A stretch of DNA of 20,557 bases from a virus. Both the position numbers and the translations under genes were made by a program. Shown piece after piece: positions 3,692 through 13,665 of this stretch. The stretch covers positions 1 through 20,557 of IMG/VR virus record IMGVR_UViG_3300037042_003781; one strand, written 5' to 3'. How positions within the stretch are numbered: the first letter of the stretch is position 1; each line of letters opens with the position of its first letter. The notes under the pieces were generated by a model. It did no database searches. It was not told where the DNA came from and saw only the letters and a list, made by a program, of their open reading frames with translations.

Positions 3692-3716
3692 GGGGGCCTT
3701 CGGGCTCCCTTTTTTT
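3692..3716 (+). terminator. Rho-independent terminator
   Basis: GGGGGCC (3692-3698), a TTCG tetraloop and GGCTCCC (3703-3709) form a 7-bp GC-rich stem with one G-U pair, followed by seven T (3710-3716). It ends the first early operon. Confidence 0.93.
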
Positions 3717-3741: not shown

Positions 3742-3764
3742 TTGAGATACATAGGTTGGCGCGA
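3742..3764 (+). repeat. Dispersed element, copy 1
   Basis: TTGAGATACATAGG, one base, then TGGCGCGA. It is the first of five copies of a roughly 22-base element found only behind the two terminators in this window. The consensus is TTGAATTACATAGG, Y, TGGCGCG, and two copies are preceded by CTGGGA. Confidence 0.8.
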
Positions 3765-3782
3765 CCCCCCATTTTTCTGGGA

Positions 3783-3805
3783 TTGATAGACATAGGCTGG
3801 CGCGA
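3783..3805 (+). repeat. Dispersed element, copy 2
   Basis: TTGATAGACATAGG, C, TGGCGCGA, preceded by TTCTGGGA. It starts 41 bases after copy 1, about four helical turns. Confidence 0.8.
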
Positions 3806-3831
3806 AATGCGACGAACCGATGATTATGGCG

Positions 3832-3860
3832 TTGACATAATTGCCGAAGTCGTGTTTTCT
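3832..3860 (+). promoter_or_regulatory. Promoter candidate for the second early operon
   Basis: TTGACA (3832-3837) is a perfect -35 box and is embedded in ATGGCGTTGACATA, close to the ATGGCGGTTGACATA around the 2123 promoter. The matching -10 position holds only TTTTCT (3855-3860), a weak match, so another factor may be needed. Confidence 0.35.
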
Positions 3861-3898
3861 CCACCTGTCATAACGGATGACACAAGGAAGGATTTACT

Positions 3899-4069
3899 AT
3901 GAGAACGATTGACCTGACCCCTACATGGGAAACCGCAGTGCGGATTTATATTATGGTGCTTGAGGATGGCGAGGAGAAGGGCAAAGAGATGGCCCGTGAG
4001 GAGCTCATGCGCTTGGCCCGTAACTATGACGCGCTTGTCGCGGATATGAAGCAGGAGGAGGCAGCATGA
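3899..4069 (+). CDS. Small conserved-type phage protein (56 aa)
   Basis: The ATG at 3899 follows AAGGAAGG at good spacing. The N-terminus MRTIDLTPTWETAVRIYIMV and a later EMAREELMRLAR match a pattern I recall from many phages (x-T-I-D-L-T-P-T-W, then a Met/Ala/Arg/Leu helix). The function of that family is unknown to me. It ends EEAA, where the two Glu codons are the GGAGGAGG ribosome site of the next gene, which starts inside its stop (ATGA at 4066-4069). Confidence 0.78.
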   Translation: MRTIDLTPTWETAVRIYIMVLEDGEEKGKEMAREELMRLARNYDALVADMKQEEAA

Positions 4070-4308
4070 CCCAAGGAATAGAAACCAAGCACATCAAGCC
4101 CACGAACACCAAGGGCTCCCGCATCAAGGCCAGCGCATGGGCTGGCAGCGTTACAGTCGGCTATGACTACGCGCTCGACACCGAGGACAACCACGCGAAC
4201 GCAGCAATGGCGCTTGCCCAGAAGTTAGGATGGGGAGGCGACTATGTGTGTGGCGGCAACGTCAAGGGCAACGGCTACCTATTTGTCAAGCGGGAGAGCC
4301 GCTCATGA
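4066..4308 (+). CDS. Conserved-type phage protein, unknown function (80 aa)
   Basis: The start overlaps the previous stop by four bases. It contains H-I-K-P-T-N-T-K-G-S-R-I-K-A at residues about 9-22, then A-x-x-A-x-A-L-A-Q-K-L-G-W and a C-terminal G-Y-L-F-V-K strand. These three blocks recur in a widespread phage hypothetical family, probably a small alpha/beta fold. No catalytic residues stand out. It is translationally coupled on both sides. Confidence 0.75.
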   Translation: MTQGIETKHIKPTNTKGSRIKASAWAGSVTVGYDYALDTEDNHANAAMALAQKLGWGGDYVCGGNVKGNGYLFVKRESRS

Positions 4309-4556
4309 ACCGCCTCCCTAACTATATCACGTTTGCTTGGCAGCGCAGCGATGGCGATTATGAAATCGTCGGCACGTTGAACGGCGAGACCATCGACGAT
4401 TACCGCCTATGGAATAGCACTGTCCGCATGATGCTCACGCTCCTGCAGCTGAACGACAGCGACACGCAAGCCTACCACCGCGAGGACGTAGTGTCTGTGC
4501 TTGAGACAGGCGAGGAAGAGGATTGGATGCCTATCAAGATGGGAGGCGCAGCATGA
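4305..4556 (+). CDS. Small unknown phage protein (83 aa)
   Basis: The ATG at 4305 overlaps the stop at 4306-4308. The sequence starts MNRLPNYITFAWQRSDGDYE and continues with strand-like segments, then V-R-M-M-L-T-L-L and an acidic stretch ETGEEEDWMPIKMGG. I do not recognise it. Its last codons (GGGAGGCGCAGC) supply the ribosome site for the next start at 4553. Confidence 0.68.
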   Translation: MNRLPNYITFAWQRSDGDYEIVGTLNGETIDDYRLWNSTVRMMLTLLQLNDSDTQAYHREDVVSVLETGEEEDWMPIKMGGAA

Positions 4557-4843
4557 CCCACTATATCGGAACAATCTATTTCCTTGGTAAGTATCGGCCG
4601 CTATCAGTCGAAGGGGATAGCCTAGAAGAAGTAATGATAGAGCTAACCTATCGCGCACAGGAAGCCCCAGAGGAGGTGCGTGAGCGCGTTAAGACCCTCT
4701 GGCTAACCAGTGACACCCGATACACCCGCCAAAGCGTTGAGCATGGATATTATGGCGCTTGTTGGATGCAGGCAGACAAGCCAGCGTTCGAAGGCAACCC
4801 ATGGGAAAGCATGCCGCCCTGTCCGAACCTAATCTACAACTGA
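4553..4843 (+). CDS. Small unknown phage protein (96 aa)
   Basis: It overlaps the previous stop by four bases (ATGA) and is the last gene before the terminator at 4849. It begins MTHYIGTIYFLGKYRPLSVE, which looks like a beta hairpin, followed by an acidic helix EVMIELTYRAQEAPEEVRER and a C-terminal part with W, Y and P-C-P. Function unknown. Confidence 0.7.
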   Translation: MTHYIGTIYFLGKYRPLSVEGDSLEEVMIELTYRAQEAPEEVRERVKTLWLTSDTRYTRQSVEHGYYGACWMQADKPAFEGNPWESMPPCPNLIYN

Positions 4844-4848
4844 AATCA

Positions 4849-4873
4849 GGGGGGCTTCGGCTCCCCTTTTTTT
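4849..4873 (+). terminator. Rho-independent terminator
   Basis: GGGGGGC (4849-4855), TTCG loop, GCTCCCC (4860-4866), then seven T (4867-4873). It has the same loop and length as the terminator at 3692 and starts five bases after the previous gene ends. Confidence 0.93.
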
Positions 4874-4877
4874 ATCC

Positions 4878-4983
4878 GGCGCGACCGACCTCTGGGATTG
4901 AATTACATAGGATGGCGCGACCCATTGCTGGCATAGGTTGGCAATCCGCTGACGCTATTGGTTGAATTACATAGGCTGGCGCG
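4878..4983 (+). repeat. Dispersed element array, copies 3 to 5
   Basis: A 3' fragment GGCGCGACC (4878-4886) is followed by copy 3 (4898-4920, TTGAATTACATAGG, A, TGGCGCGA), a shortened copy 4 (CATAGGTTGGC, 4932-4942) and copy 5 (4962-4983, TTGAATTACATAGG, C, TGGCGCG). Copy 5 has TTGAAT and, 17 bases later, TATTTT (4985-4990), so it could double as a sigma70-type promoter. The other copies lack a -10 box. Confidence 0.78.
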
Positions 4984-4984
4984 C

Positions 4985-5365
4985 TATTTTGCCACCCTCA
5001 CACAAAAAACGGCTGATTTCTGCGGGTTTGAGGGGTATTTATCACGCTTTTTGCCAAAGTCACACGCCTCTTGTGAGGGTAAAAATGGCGCAAATCCCCC
5101 CTTTTTCTATCTATATCTATAAATATAATGATTTATTTATATATATATCCCCCCCGAGATTTTTAATTCTCTTTAGAGAGGGGGGGAGGGAGATATATAT
5201 ATAGGGATATATTTTCGGGAAATCCGTGACATTTTCGGATTATCCTTTTGTATCAATGCTTTATAGCCACACGGGGGCGTGAGGGTAGCAAAAATTCCCC
5301 TGCAATTACAATGGCTTATTGGTCACGGGGAGTGTGACATTTTGGGGCAAATCCGTGACCTTTTG
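4985..5365. other. Candidate replication origin: repeats around an AT-rich core
   Basis: GTGAGGGT occurs at 5073-5080 and 5279-5286 and inverted at 4994-5001, where a 9-base inverted repeat forms with 5072-5080. AAATCCGTGAC(A/C)TTTT occurs at 5220-5235 and 5349-5364, and GTGACATTTT again at 5334-5343. Between them, 5108-5148 is almost pure A/T. Short direct and inverted repeats next to an easily melted core are the usual design of an origin bound by an initiator. No gene ahead of 5279 is credible here. Replication genes follow downstream, but no initiator is recognised. Confidence 0.5.
5138..5203. repeat. Large imperfect palindrome with TA and C/G arms
   Basis: TATATATATAT plus seven C (5138-5155) face seven G (5180-5186), an AGGGAG insertion and ATATATATATA (5193-5203). 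The 24-base centre contains a small CTCTTTAGAG hairpin. Confidence 0.75.
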
Positions 5366-5515
5366 CGAAATATATTGGATGATAAGATTATTTGCGTTCG
5401 GATGTTGTTTGATGACGTTTTATTGTTGACAGATGAAAAGACGTTGGATTATGTGTTGTGTGTGGCTGGCAATGGCGTGTCAGTCACTGATTATATGGAA
5501 GGACTTTTGAAATGA
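5279..5515 (+). CDS. Uncertain small gene at the edge of the repeat region (up to 78 aa)
   Basis: The frame ends at TGA 5513-5515 inside the ATG of the next gene (ATGA), which supports translation through it. The longest start is a GTG at 5279, but that GTG is part of a repeated GTGAGGGT motif and has no clear ribosome site; the first ATG in frame is at 5402. The protein-like part is the second half: DDKIICVRMLFDDVLLLTDE and onward. I would trust the 3' end but not the start. No family is recognised. Confidence 0.45.
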   Translation: MRVAKIPLQLQWLIGHGECDILGQIRDLLRNILDDKIICVRMLFDDVLLLTDEKTLDYVLCVAGNGVSVTDYMEGLLK

Positions 5516-8952: not shown

Positions 8953-9230
8953 ACACTGAAGAGCGTTTCGTAGTGAAACAGATAGTGGGGCGCGCTCTGG
9001 ACAAGGGCTATTTGTTGTCGGTGTTTGACGGCGAGGAATATCCTATCCGGCATAGCGATGACGCTGAAGCTGTGATGGCAGAGCTTGGACACTGCGATGA
9101 GGAGTGGCTTCAGGTGGCGAACGCTGACCGCAAGCGGATTGGCATGATATTTTTTGTCTATGGGAATGACCCCGATGAGGTGGTCTGTGATTACACGGAC
9201 AAAGCAGAGATCGAGGAGATAGTCGGATGA
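8949..9230 (+). CDS. Conserved-type phage protein, unknown function (93 aa)
   Basis: It overlaps the previous stop by four bases, behind GAGGAGG. The pattern S-V-F-D-G-E-E-Y-P-I-R-x-S, then E-E-W-L-Q-V-x-x-A-D, then I-F-F-V-Y-G-N-D-P-D-E-V-V-C-D-Y is one I have seen in many phages as a conserved hypothetical. It suggests a small alpha/beta fold. Function unknown. Confidence 0.74.
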   Translation: MNTEERFVVKQIVGRALDKGYLLSVFDGEEYPIRHSDDAEAVMAELGHCDEEWLQVANADRKRIGMIFFVYGNDPDEVVCDYTDKAEIEEIVG

Positions 9231-9415
9231 CTGATTACGAAGTAATCCTGAAGGCACGCGATGCCTTTAATGAACGTGATAGGGCGGCGCGACAGCTGCG
9301 AGAGATTGATAGTAAAATACAAGGTTTGGTGACAGATTATAGTTTGGCGGTCAGGGTCTGGGGCTTCACACCGATTATGCTTAGGCAGGCGGTTCGTTCG
9401 AGGCTGGGCGATTGA
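9227..9415 (+). CDS. Small helical protein (62 aa)
   Basis: It overlaps the previous stop by four bases. A coiled-coil-like N-terminal half (ARDAFNERDRAARQLREIDS) is followed by strands (AVRVWGF) and a basic end. No function recognised. Confidence 0.64.
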   Translation: MTDYEVILKARDAFNERDRAARQLREIDSKIQGLVTDYSLAVRVWGFTPIMLRQAVRSRLGD

Positions 9416-10216: not shown

Positions 10217-12614
10217 GATAGACCTGACGGCGATTAAGGCCGGGGATATAACTGACACACCGAGCATAGTCACGCCCATGCCGGAGCCGATTGTGGTTCC
10301 TGCAAAGCTGAAGACTGCGCTGGGTGGTGAGCCGGACTCGATGTGGATATACCGCATGGCTGATGGCTCTGCCTTTGGCGCGGTGGCGCGTTGGAACCCC
10401 GAAGGTAAGCGGAAAGAGATCCGACCGATAGTCTGGGACGGCAAGAAGTATATCACTTCGGGCTTTGGGCAGGGACGCCCGCTCTATAACAGCGACATGA
10501 TTGCGTCTGCGCCGAATGCGCCAGTGCTGCTTGTCGAGGGTGAGAAGGCAGCTGATGCAGCGCCACAGTATTTGCCGGAGGGCTGGGTTGTTTCGACATG
10601 GCAGGGCGGTGCGAATGCCGTCGAGCAGACCAGTTGGGATATACTGGAGGGGCATAGCGTCGTGGTCTGGCCGGACAATGACGGGGCTGGGGCGCAAGCG
10701 GCGATTGAAATCCAGAACATTCTAGCGCGCCATGCTGTGCCTGTCTCGATTGTCGGGCTTAGTCCGGCGTTTCCTGATGCGTGGGACTTGGGCGACGAGC
10801 TGCCAGCGAAGGTGAAGCCGGAGAACATTACGGGATTGCTGCGCCGAGAATTGAAACGCGCTACCGTTGCTGTTCTTGATGAACCCGTCAAAGAAGAAGA
10901 GATCATCGACTATGATGAGGATGTGGCGCGACAGTGGCGACCGCTGGGCTATGACAACAATAAATTTATGTTGCAGACGCAGCAACGTGGTCAGGTGGAG
11001 ATATTTGATCCCGACCGCCTGATGAGCCAGAAGGGCTGTGTAAATATCTATGGCAACGTAGCTCACTGGGGTAGCCAGCAGGGTCTGCCCGATGGCAAGG
11101 GTGTTGATTGGATACAGGCTGGCATTCAAATCATGGATAGCTGCCATAATCTGGGCGTCTATGATCCCAAGCGGCTGCGTGGGCGTGGTATCTGGATAGA
11201 CAAGGGTGAGGATGATGTTGATCGCGCCGTGATGAATGCTGGTAGTAAGCTGGTGGTGAGTAGGGCTGGGACTGAGACGCGAGAGATTCCGTTTGTGCGC
11301 TTCAAGAGCCGTTGGATTTATCAGAAGAGTGTCGATCTGATATTAAATATTGATGATTACAATGCACAAGCAAGCGATGACGATGGCCGGATGATCCGAG
11401 AGTTGTGCAACAAGGTGCGCTGGGATGCGCCTATCTATGGCGACCTGTTGGCTGGCTGGATTGCGACCGCTGTTGTTTGCGGTGGCTTGCAATGGCGAAC
11501 GCACGCATGGGTAACGGGCAATCAGGGTTCGGGTAAGTCAACGATTGTGAATGAGATTGCGGGCGCTTGCCTTGGGGACTTGGCTATCTATCCTATGGGG
11601 GCAACGACTGAGGCTGGTATCCGTCAGCTGCTGCGTAATGATGCTATGCCTGTGGTGTTTGATGAGGCCGAGGGTGACGATAAGCAGAAGCAGCAAAACG
11701 AGGCGCGCCGTAAGGCTGTTATGGATCTGATGCGGCAGGCTTCGAGCGAGGGGCGTGGCCGTATTCTGAAGGGCTCTGCGAACCATAGCGCACAGACGTT
11801 TACGATGCGGTCGTCGTTCCTGATGTCATCGATTGGCGTTGGCCTGAAGGAAGCAGCCGACCTTTCCAGAACGGCAGTGCTGACGATCAAGCCGCTGGAA
11901 AGCTACAGTCATGACGAGCGGAAGAAAAAAGAGATGGAGTTCAAGGACTTCTTGAGCCTTGCATCGGAGATCCCGGATGATATGCCACAGCGCTTGGTTG
12001 CGCGGCAGCTGCACAATCTGTTTACGTTGCGTCATAACGTGGAGATTTTCAAAGAGACGATTGCCGTTATGCTGGCAAACCGCCGTATTGGTGATCAGCT
12101 GGGGACGCTGATGGCCGGATGCCATAGCCTGTATAGCACGAAGCGTTTAGACCTGAAGCAGTGCGAGAAATACCTGAACACCGTAAACCTCGATGAGTTC
12201 CTACAGGTGAAGTCAGAGCGCGAAGACGTTTCCCTGCTGCATCACATTGTGGGGAGCATGATTCGGGTTGAGACTGTTCATGGCACGCAGGATCGCACGA
12301 TTGGTGAGCTAATGGTTATTTGTTTTAGAAATGATGAACACGCAGACGTTAATTTGAAAGTATCAGAAGCTACTCTTGCCCGTTATGGAATGAAGATTGA
12401 CCGCGATGGTAAGTCTGTTCATGGCGTATGGATAGGCCAGAGCATTCAGTCTATGAACCGGATCATGCAAACATCTGTTTATTACGAAGGTTGGGCTGGC
12501 GTTTTGATGCGCCATCCATATGCAAAGAAGAGTGCGAATAGTATCAGCTTCGGCGGCACATCGGCACGAGCAATTCATCTACCTAAGCAGGAGTGGCCAG
12601 TAGGACTATGGTAA
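10209..12614 (+). CDS. Primase-helicase: TOPRIM domain plus P-loop ATPase (801 aa)
   Basis: The largest complete gene of the window. Residues about 105-165 form a TOPRIM domain: V-E-G-E-K-A-A-D-A-A (E110) and W-P-D-N-D-G-A-G (D156, D158) match the metal-binding signature of primases. A C-terminal ATPase follows, with Walker A G-N-Q-G-S-G-K-S-T at 437-445 and Walker B P-V-V-F-D-E-A-E-G around 481-489. The region after it (M-R-S-S-F-L-M-S-S-I-G) fits the sensor part of SF3/DUF927-like helicases. Expected roles are making RNA primers and unwinding DNA at the phage fork. The start overlaps the primase-like gene by eight bases. Whether it is an SF3, SF4 or DUF927 type needs a profile search. Confidence 0.86.
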   Translation: MRKIDLTAIKAGDITDTPSIVTPMPEPIVVPAKLKTALGGEPDSMWIYRMADGSAFGAVARWNPEGKRKEIRPIVWDGKKYITSGFGQGRPLYNSDMIASAPNAPVLLVEGEKAADAAPQYLPEGWVVSTWQGGANAVEQTSWDILEGHSVVVWPDNDGAGAQAAIEIQNILARHAVPVSIVGLSPAFPDAWDLGDELPAKVKPENITGLLRRELKRATVAVLDEPVKEEEIIDYDEDVARQWRPLGYDNNKFMLQTQQRGQVEIFDPDRLMSQKGCVNIYGNVAHWGSQQGLPDGKGVDWIQAGIQIMDSCHNLGVYDPKRLRGRGIWIDKGEDDVDRAVMNAGSKLVVSRAGTETREIPFVRFKSRWIYQKSVDLILNIDDYNAQASDDDGRMIRELCNKVRWDAPIYGDLLAGWIATAVVCGGLQWRTHAWVTGNQGSGKSTIVNEIAGACLGDLAIYPMGATTEAGIRQLLRNDAMPVVFDEAEGDDKQKQQNEARRKAVMDLMRQASSEGRGRILKGSANHSAQTFTMRSSFLMSSIGVGLKEAADLSRTAVLTIKPLESYSHDERKKKEMEFKDFLSLASEIPDDMPQRLVARQLHNLFTLRHNVEIFKETIAVMLANRRIGDQLGTLMAGCHSLYSTKRLDLKQCEKYLNTVNLDEFLQVKSEREDVSLLHHIVGSMIRVETVHGTQDRTIGELMVICFRNDEHADVNLKVSEATLARYGMKIDRDGKSVHGVWIGQSIQSMNRIMQTSVYYEGWAGVLMRHPYAKKSANSISFGGTSARAIHLPKQEWPVGLW

Positions 12615-12781
12615 AAAAGAACAAACACGAGGGCGAGGAATTGGCCTTCAAGATCATCCGTGATTGGCCGGACACTACGCTTCTTGGCAAGCGTCCGCAT
12701 CACATTACCGCTGCGTTTGGCATTAGCTTGCCTACTGCTGAAAGGCTGTTGAAAGATGAGCGCCGTAGGCGTAACTTCTAG
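12608..12781 (+). CDS. Small HTH-like protein (57 aa)
   Basis: The ATG at 12608 lies seven bases inside the helicase gene. The basic sequence is MVKKNKHEGEELAFKIIRDW and onward, then H-H-I-T-A-A-F-G-I-S-L-P-T-A-E-R-L-L-K-D-E-R-R-R-R, which reads as helix, turn and recognition helix with A-F-G-I-S as the turn and T-A-E-R-L-L as the second helix. A DNA-binding regulator is plausible. The promoter and inverted repeat that follow at 12783 would be natural targets. Confidence 0.68.
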   Translation: MVKKNKHEGEELAFKIIRDWPDTTLLGKRPHHITAAFGISLPTAERLLKDERRRRNF

Positions 12782-13334: not shown

Positions 13335-13504
13335 CAGAGGCAGAGGAAGAACGCGACCGCATTGTGGGTATTATCCAAGCGCGTATCGACATCCATCGCA
13401 ACTTCATTAACTTCTGCATGGATAACGATGTGCAGGTAACGCCTAGCATCTTTAGCGCCATAGTCGAATTGCGTGCGCTGTTGCGGAAAATAGAATGCCA
13501 ATAG
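13331..13504 (+). CDS. Small unknown protein (57 aa), GTG start
   Basis: The GTG at 13331 overlaps the small frame before it (GTGA); a TTG at 13322 is the alternative. The product is MTEAEEERDRIVGIIQARID and onward, helical, ending ALLRKIECQ. No known motif. Confidence 0.58.
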   Translation: MTEAEEERDRIVGIIQARIDIHRNFINFCMDNDVQVTPSIFSAIVELRALLRKIECQ

Positions 13505-13665
13505 TAAGACGGTCTGTAAGAGTGTGGACGCCTGAGAAGGACGCCCAGCTGCTGGAATATTATGAGCATGGCCTGAGGCCAGCCTACATGGCGGAACAAA
13601 TGGGGCTCACGATTGCGTCCGTGGAATGCCGCTATAGGAAACTGAAGAAGGGACTGGGGAAATGA
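13495..13665 (+). CDS. GcrA/Myb-like HTH protein (56 aa)
   Basis: The ATG at 13495 overlaps the preceding gene by ten bases. The core reads V-W-T-P-E-K-D-A-Q-L-L-E-Y-Y-E-H-G-L-R-P-A-Y-M-A-E-Q-M-G-L-T-I-A-S-V-E-C-R-Y-R-K-L. W-T-x-E-x-x-x-x-L-L, then a G, then x-x-M-A-E-Q-M-G, T, S-V and K-L is the pattern of the small HTH shared by GcrA, a methylation-sensitive cell-cycle regulator of Alphaproteobacteria, and Myb/SANT domains. It covers almost the whole protein. It probably binds DNA. Whether it imitates host GcrA is open. Confidence 0.66.
   Translation: MPIVRRSVRVWTPEKDAQLLEYYEHGLRPAYMAEQMGLTIASVECRYRKLKKGLGK

Follow-up and report, generated by a model that had tools for sequence, protein, structure and literature searches.

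A directional 22-base repeat behind the early terminators of an unisolated phage group is a candidate binding site for a phage-encoded regulator

Behind the terminators of two early operons in an unisolated phage lies a 22-base element that recurs in a single orientation and at equivalent positions in related phages, in which its copy number varies; it has no RNA structure and no recurrent counterpart in host genomes. The explanation that we prefer, and to which we give an even chance of being right, is that a phage-encoded DNA-binding regulator uses the element as an asymmetric, directional site from which it would act at a transcription boundary. From sequence comparison we infer that a protein binds the element, that the phage encodes this protein and what the protein does there.

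The window, which is the whole stretch of 20,557 nucleotides that was analysed, represents part of a podovirus-like genome, and within it the element is confined to two slots, one following the early operon 1 terminator and the other that of early operon 2. In slot 1 the operon 1 terminator is followed by the sites and then by the sigma70-type promoter of operon 2, while in slot 2 the operon 2 terminator is followed by the sites and then by an origin-like region. The features concerned are as follows.

3692..3716, plus strand: intrinsic terminator of early operon 1 (GGGGGCCTTCGGGCTCCC followed by T7), 25 nt from T-run to element
3742..3763, plus strand: element copy 1 (TTGAGATACATAGGTTGGCGCG), kept in L005, L008, L036 and L037
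3783..3804, plus strand: element copy 2 (TTGATAGACATAGGCTGGCGCG), 41 bp after copy 1
3832..3860, plus strand: sigma70-like promoter of early operon 2 (TTGACA-17-TTTTCT), read from sequence; it fails a strict consensus scan
3866..3882, plus strand: inverted repeat TGTCAT-N5-ATGACA, directly after the -10 box at the start of the operon-2 transcripts
3899..4843, plus strand: early operon 2, with small genes at 3899-4069, 4066-4308, 4305-4556 and 4553-4843
4848..4873, plus strand: intrinsic terminator of early operon 2, 24 nt from T-run to element
4898..4919, plus strand: element copy 3 (TTGAATTACATAGGATGGCGCG)
4924..4945, plus strand: degenerate copy (ATTGCTGGCATAGGTTGGCAAT), shifted in phase by about half a helical turn relative to the neighbouring copies
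4962..4983, plus strand: element copy 4 (TTGAATTACATAGGCTGGCGCG), 64 bp after copy 3
4985..5400, no strand assigned: origin-like region, with an AT-rich core and flanking GTGACATTTT/TGTCAC-type repeats in both directions

The first-pass annotation of this DNA had described a repeated 22-base element placed after terminators, and both observations stood: the four full copies (3742, 3783, 4898 and 4962) all lie on the plus strand, no match at three or fewer mismatches was obtained in 100 dinucleotide shuffles (chance expectation 0), and both terminators are real consensus matches. The details required correction. The consensus of the window is TTGANNNACATAGGNTGGCGCG, and that given earlier, TTGAATTACATAGG, is exact for the two slot-2 copies but not for the slot-1 copies, which read TTGAGATACATAGG and TTGATAGACATAGG. 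One of the two fragments assigned to slot 2 is clear (4924-4945; L040 has the same degenerate copy), whereas the other carries little weight, being no more than the hexamer GGCGCG at about 4878. A spacing of about 41 bases holds in slot 1 but not in slot 2, where the intervals are 26 + 38 = 64. The assertion that the element occurs nowhere else was sound insofar as a position weight matrix (PWM) scan of the window gave nothing else convincing, but two weaker matches do lie inside two genes, at 8973-8994 and 9270-9291; we regard these as coding coincidences because they are also found in relatives whose contigs stop short of the slots.

The relatives were collected from IMG/VR by a primase search. 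In the window, a minus-strand TerS-like gene (1014-1559), assigned from its position before TerL in relatives, is accompanied by plus-strand early genes for a primase-helicase, a helicase, a RecE-type exonuclease and RecT, and then by a large minus-strand virion protein. The IMG/VR record G026, classed there as linear, runs to 54,968 bases, and its ends overlap by 123 bases; this terminal direct repeat (L079 1-123 and the end of L080) shows that the genome, of about 54.8 kb, is complete. G037, a near-complete carrier of the element at 53.5 kb, is without some tail-fibre genes. Portal proteins are about 40% identical to those of HTVC027P, HTVC023P and DSL-LC04 and 36% identical to that of CRP-901; the group as a whole is unisolated, and Pelagibacter and Roseobacter are among the bacterial hosts of its nearest isolates. 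No near-identical DNA was found among isolated phages, and a search of GTDB cellular genomes with the primase profile, in which a prophage might have revealed the host, found no relative. The carriers of the element form a group of lytic-looking water phages.

Among these relatives the element occupies the equivalents of slot 1 or slot 2, with zero to four copies per slot and always on the early-gene strand. Carriers within the close clade are L005, L006, L008, L036-L038, L040, L043 and L114/L115, while a distant-clade form, TTGAACNGCATAGGCAGGCNCG, was found in L016, L026, L031, L087, L091 and L092, including phages with just 65-71% primase identity to the window and with diverged flanks, and a further form, TTGAACTGCATAGG(A/G)A(T/C)GCC(T/C)G, in L119 and L215. 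The longest arrays, of three and four sites with a period of 28-32 bp, are those of L091. The core common to the relatives is TTGAA-N3-SATAGG-N2-GGC, and across 39 copies three conserved blocks, TTGA, ATAGG and GGC, stand about one helical turn apart with no dyad. In this set TTGA, GGC and the terminal CG are strongly conserved; the invariance of ATAGG is partly due to the pattern with which the 39 copies were gathered, which itself contained ATAGG. A structured RNA element was rejected, as RNAalifold gave no consensus fold for 37 distinct copies and there was no Rfam match.

Beyond the phage group, a loose-consensus scan of IMG/VR returned only a few isolated matches (L202, L203, L216 and L219). 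The same was true of cellular DNA: a scan of 85,000 genomes in GTDB gave 13 single matches, each within a long-open-frame stretch and none near relatives of the window phage. A host regulator box was rejected, since these matches are isolated and show no recurrent intergenic copies, and the lack of a recurrent motif in host genomes points to a phage protein as the reader of the element.

The spacing of the sites was then compared between genomes. Distances from full site to full site cluster near whole helical turns, with a best-fit period of 11.2 (p ~0.002-0.01), and the degenerate middle copies lie about half a turn off; the phasing tests were post hoc, and draw on few independent events in related genomes. 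This pattern suggests that the sites would be bound on one face of the helix. Nearly all slots stand directly behind a hairpin and T-run, and this holds for terminators of differing sequence; in slot 2 of L091 the hairpin has no T-run, and in L215 and slot 2 of L119 the element comes right after a promoter-like sequence instead of, or besides, a terminator. From T-run to first site the distance is usually 24 bp and otherwise 3, 14, 35, 39, 46 or 100 bp: the close clade keeps to 24-26 bp apart from L115 (14) and slot 1 of L008 (35), and beyond it the values are 3 in L119, 46 in the L016/L031/L092 lineage, 39 in L215 and 100 in L026. Phasing relative to the T-run, which L215 breaks, gave p 0.0004-0.004 before that genome was included and p ~0.04 once it was, and hints only weakly at sites in phase with the T-run. 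Taken together, the asymmetry, the three blocks one turn apart, the variable arrays, the near-whole-turn spacing and the lack of RNA structure argue for a protein-binding site.

In the mechanism that we propose, a boundary module would be made up of an intrinsic terminator, an array of one to four adjacent sites behind it and then the next early promoter (slot 1) or the origin-like region (slot 2). The protein bound there would most likely influence transcription across the boundary, perhaps by halting host RNA polymerase that has read through the terminator and thereby keeping it from running unchecked into the next operon or the origin. In slot 1 the protein may in addition control the sigma70-type promoter that lies 3-5 helical turns downstream. 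Because the terminator is the most constant neighbour of the element, we favour a role in blocking read-through at the boundary. The protein could work in a stoperator-like manner or as an upstream regulator. The more specific proposal of a terminator-coupled, one-way roadblock at helically phased asymmetric sites, insulating the early operons and the origin in a lytic phage, is one that we advance tentatively, as a possibility more doubtful than probable; if true, it would amount to stoperator-like control without lysogeny. The conserved array provides a defined DNA bait for the regulator, and would allow stoperator-like roadblocks in lytic phages to be tested.

The closest parallel is with the stoperators of cluster A mycobacteriophages such as L5 and TipsytheTRex, which are asymmetric sites for the immunity repressor with an orientation that follows transcription (PMC9283540). 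The element resembles these in its asymmetric sites, its short intergenic spaces, its transcription-tied orientation, its many copies and its single phage-specific consensus (PMC9283540), and the copies in both slots are intergenic, asymmetric and all on the early-gene strand. In contrast, L5 has more than 20 stoperators of 13 bp, dispersed genome-wide and bound by a prophage repressor, whereas the present sites are of 22 bp, occur in lytic-looking phages and, by PWM scan, are restricted to two slots. Scanning of the larger genes revealed no integrase, and no repressor was found in the phage group. We do not claim membership in the stoperator family, as the sites are not genome-wide, neither repressor nor integrase was seen and binding is only predicted.

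A second known arrangement, the promoter-early-stem-loop (PeSL) of T4, repeatedly sets a terminator and a promoter between early genes that are small and variable. The slots share this punctuation but add to it a conserved array of 22-bp sites between terminator and promoter.

Among the alternatives, the one that fares best is that the element is an operator, for an activator or a repressor, serving only the adjacent sigma70 promoter of operon 2 and having no role at the terminator, which we consider possible but unlikely. In slot 1 the distance from the last CATAGG to the TTGAC -35 box is near whole turns, at 41/42 bp in six clade-A genomes, including the 41 bp that separate copy 2 from the operon-2 promoter in the window, and 32 bp in L091; the promoter is also retained together with the array in L091 and L119, even if the TTGACA box of L119, about 55 bp away as counted by eye, is off the whole-turn rule. 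Against a role confined to the promoter, the last copy in slot 2 of clade A is not closely followed by a sigma70-like box, about 450 bp separate it from the next promoter, and the terminator is the more constant neighbour. The inverted repeat at 3866..3882, which all clade-A slot-1 relatives retain, is probably a separate operator.

Iterons, as in P1, R6K and the lambda origin, are direct repeats beside an AT-rich region with spacing near whole turns. The element is similar to these in its direct repeats, length, AT-rich neighbour and near-whole-turn spacing, and it might represent replication sites, either initiator iterons or polar fork barriers that would make replication of the origin region one-way. 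Consistent with this, one cluster of iteron-length direct repeats adjoins the AT-rich, repeat-flanked region at 4985..5400, which we infer to be a replication origin, and all copies lie on one side of it in a single orientation. However, the origin-like region is present but the element missing in nine relatives (L012, L017-L019, L023, L024, L029, L030 and L033), and two of these, L012 and L030, lack the entire slot-1 module; the element can thus be lost and is no core signal for replication, and its function must be dispensable or replaceable. Slot 1, moreover, stands 1.1 kb away beside a promoter, and the origin-like region has repeats of its own. We consider a replication function decidedly unlikely. 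An initiator or repressor binding at a spacing of about 41 bp had been suggested by the first-pass annotation; a protein-binding array is indeed what fits best, but the retention of the origin-like region in relatives without the element speaks against a replication initiator. The annotation had also named absence from related phages and random occurrence within genes as evidence against its reading: some related phages do lack the element, but it is not scattered at random in genes.

The origin-like region itself was recognized in other genomes (L005 2051-2550, L016 3230-3660 and L026 4560-5020), with a constant core that contains TATATA stretches and with flanking repeats that differ by clade (GTGACATTTT, GTTTCA, or CGTTTTAT/ATACAG). 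It resembles a P4-alpha-type origin, which would be read by the 801-aa primase-helicase.

It is very unlikely that the element is a promoter, whether for a phage-specific RNA polymerase of the single-subunit type or for the host enzyme acting with a specificity factor of the phage. Promoters of the T7 type, such as phi1.1A/B, resemble the element in length, one-way orientation, an ATAGG start-like core and an early position, and in a T7-like geometry ATAGG would span -3 to +2 and TTGA would be the recognition block at -12 to -9, with slot 2, beside the AT-rich origin, copying the phi1.1A/B origin. Unlike such promoters, the element forms tandem arrays, whose period of 28-32 bp does not suit promoters, and neither of the two checks that were run favoured the special or modified polymerase that had been put forward earlier. 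There are just two copies of the element in G037, both of them in slot 2, and its late genes are preceded by none; no single-subunit RNA polymerase gene was found in G037, G026 or other large contigs, whether as a family match among the large proteins examined or as a combination of polymerase motifs in a six-frame scan, from which the G037 loci were left out. A motif-scan match in the portal protein was a false positive, a virion RNA polymerase was rejected since PHROG 2206 matches only the flanking parts of polyvalent proteins, which have no polymerase motifs, and a PF00940 search of whole records was run without a positive control. The larger genes of G037 match G026 or other relatives, except for a few small proteins or proteins of unidentified function, and its missing tail-fibre stretch is covered in G005 and G006 by homologues of G026 tail proteins. 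Four metagenomic CRP-901-type relatives are reported to encode an RNA polymerase, but CRP-901 and CRP-902 do not (PMC10149686). A sigma70 promoter at each copy was rejected, there being no conserved -10 box downstream of TTGAA; as noted previously, a sigma70-like -10 box (TATTTT at 17 bp) accompanies one copy only, that at 4962. A sigma54 promoter (TGGCACN5TTGC) was likewise rejected, as TGGCGCG is present with no conserved TTGC and distant copies read AGGCCCG.

There is similarly little chance that the element is punctuation for recombination, a short homology between the slots for swapping operon-2 cassettes, in the manner of the PeSL elements of T4: the terminator-plus-element block common to both slots does form a 79-nt repeat (D3, 72% identity), the gene content between them varies strongly and an HNH-type gene lies in or beside slot 2 of L037 and L038, but three phased blocks kept while spacers drift, and arrays of three to four sites, are more than homology needs, and shuffling may be a by-product. 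The HNH-like gene, assigned by eye, is inserted on the opposite strand (L037 6700-7300, L038 10500-10950), where it replaces the elements in L037 and adjoins them in L038.

To return to the phage-encoded regulator, no early gene family was present in all carriers of the element and absent from non-carriers. A 62-aa putative HTH protein (12593-12781), encoded next to the primase, occurs in nearly every relative that reaches the region, non-carriers included, and is a candidate binder by elimination only. A 56-aa D5/GcrA/Myb-like DNA-binding protein, encoded at 13495-13665 in the window, is present only in some clade-A phages; it was excluded as the binder because the carrier G037 is without it.

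Two further motifs were observed near the early operons. Between terminator 2 and the origin-like region, distant clades have a second motif, GGGCTTTAAAA(T/C)CG, which was found in L016, L017, L018, L024, L026, L029, L030, L031 and L033, whether or not the 22-base element is there too. At 2025-2078 in the window, upstream of early operon 1, lie two ATCACATTGCGCTGTGAT-type inverted repeats, 34 bp apart, that likely constitute an operator, and the counterpart of this inverted repeat in L016 is TCACATTGCAATGTGA.
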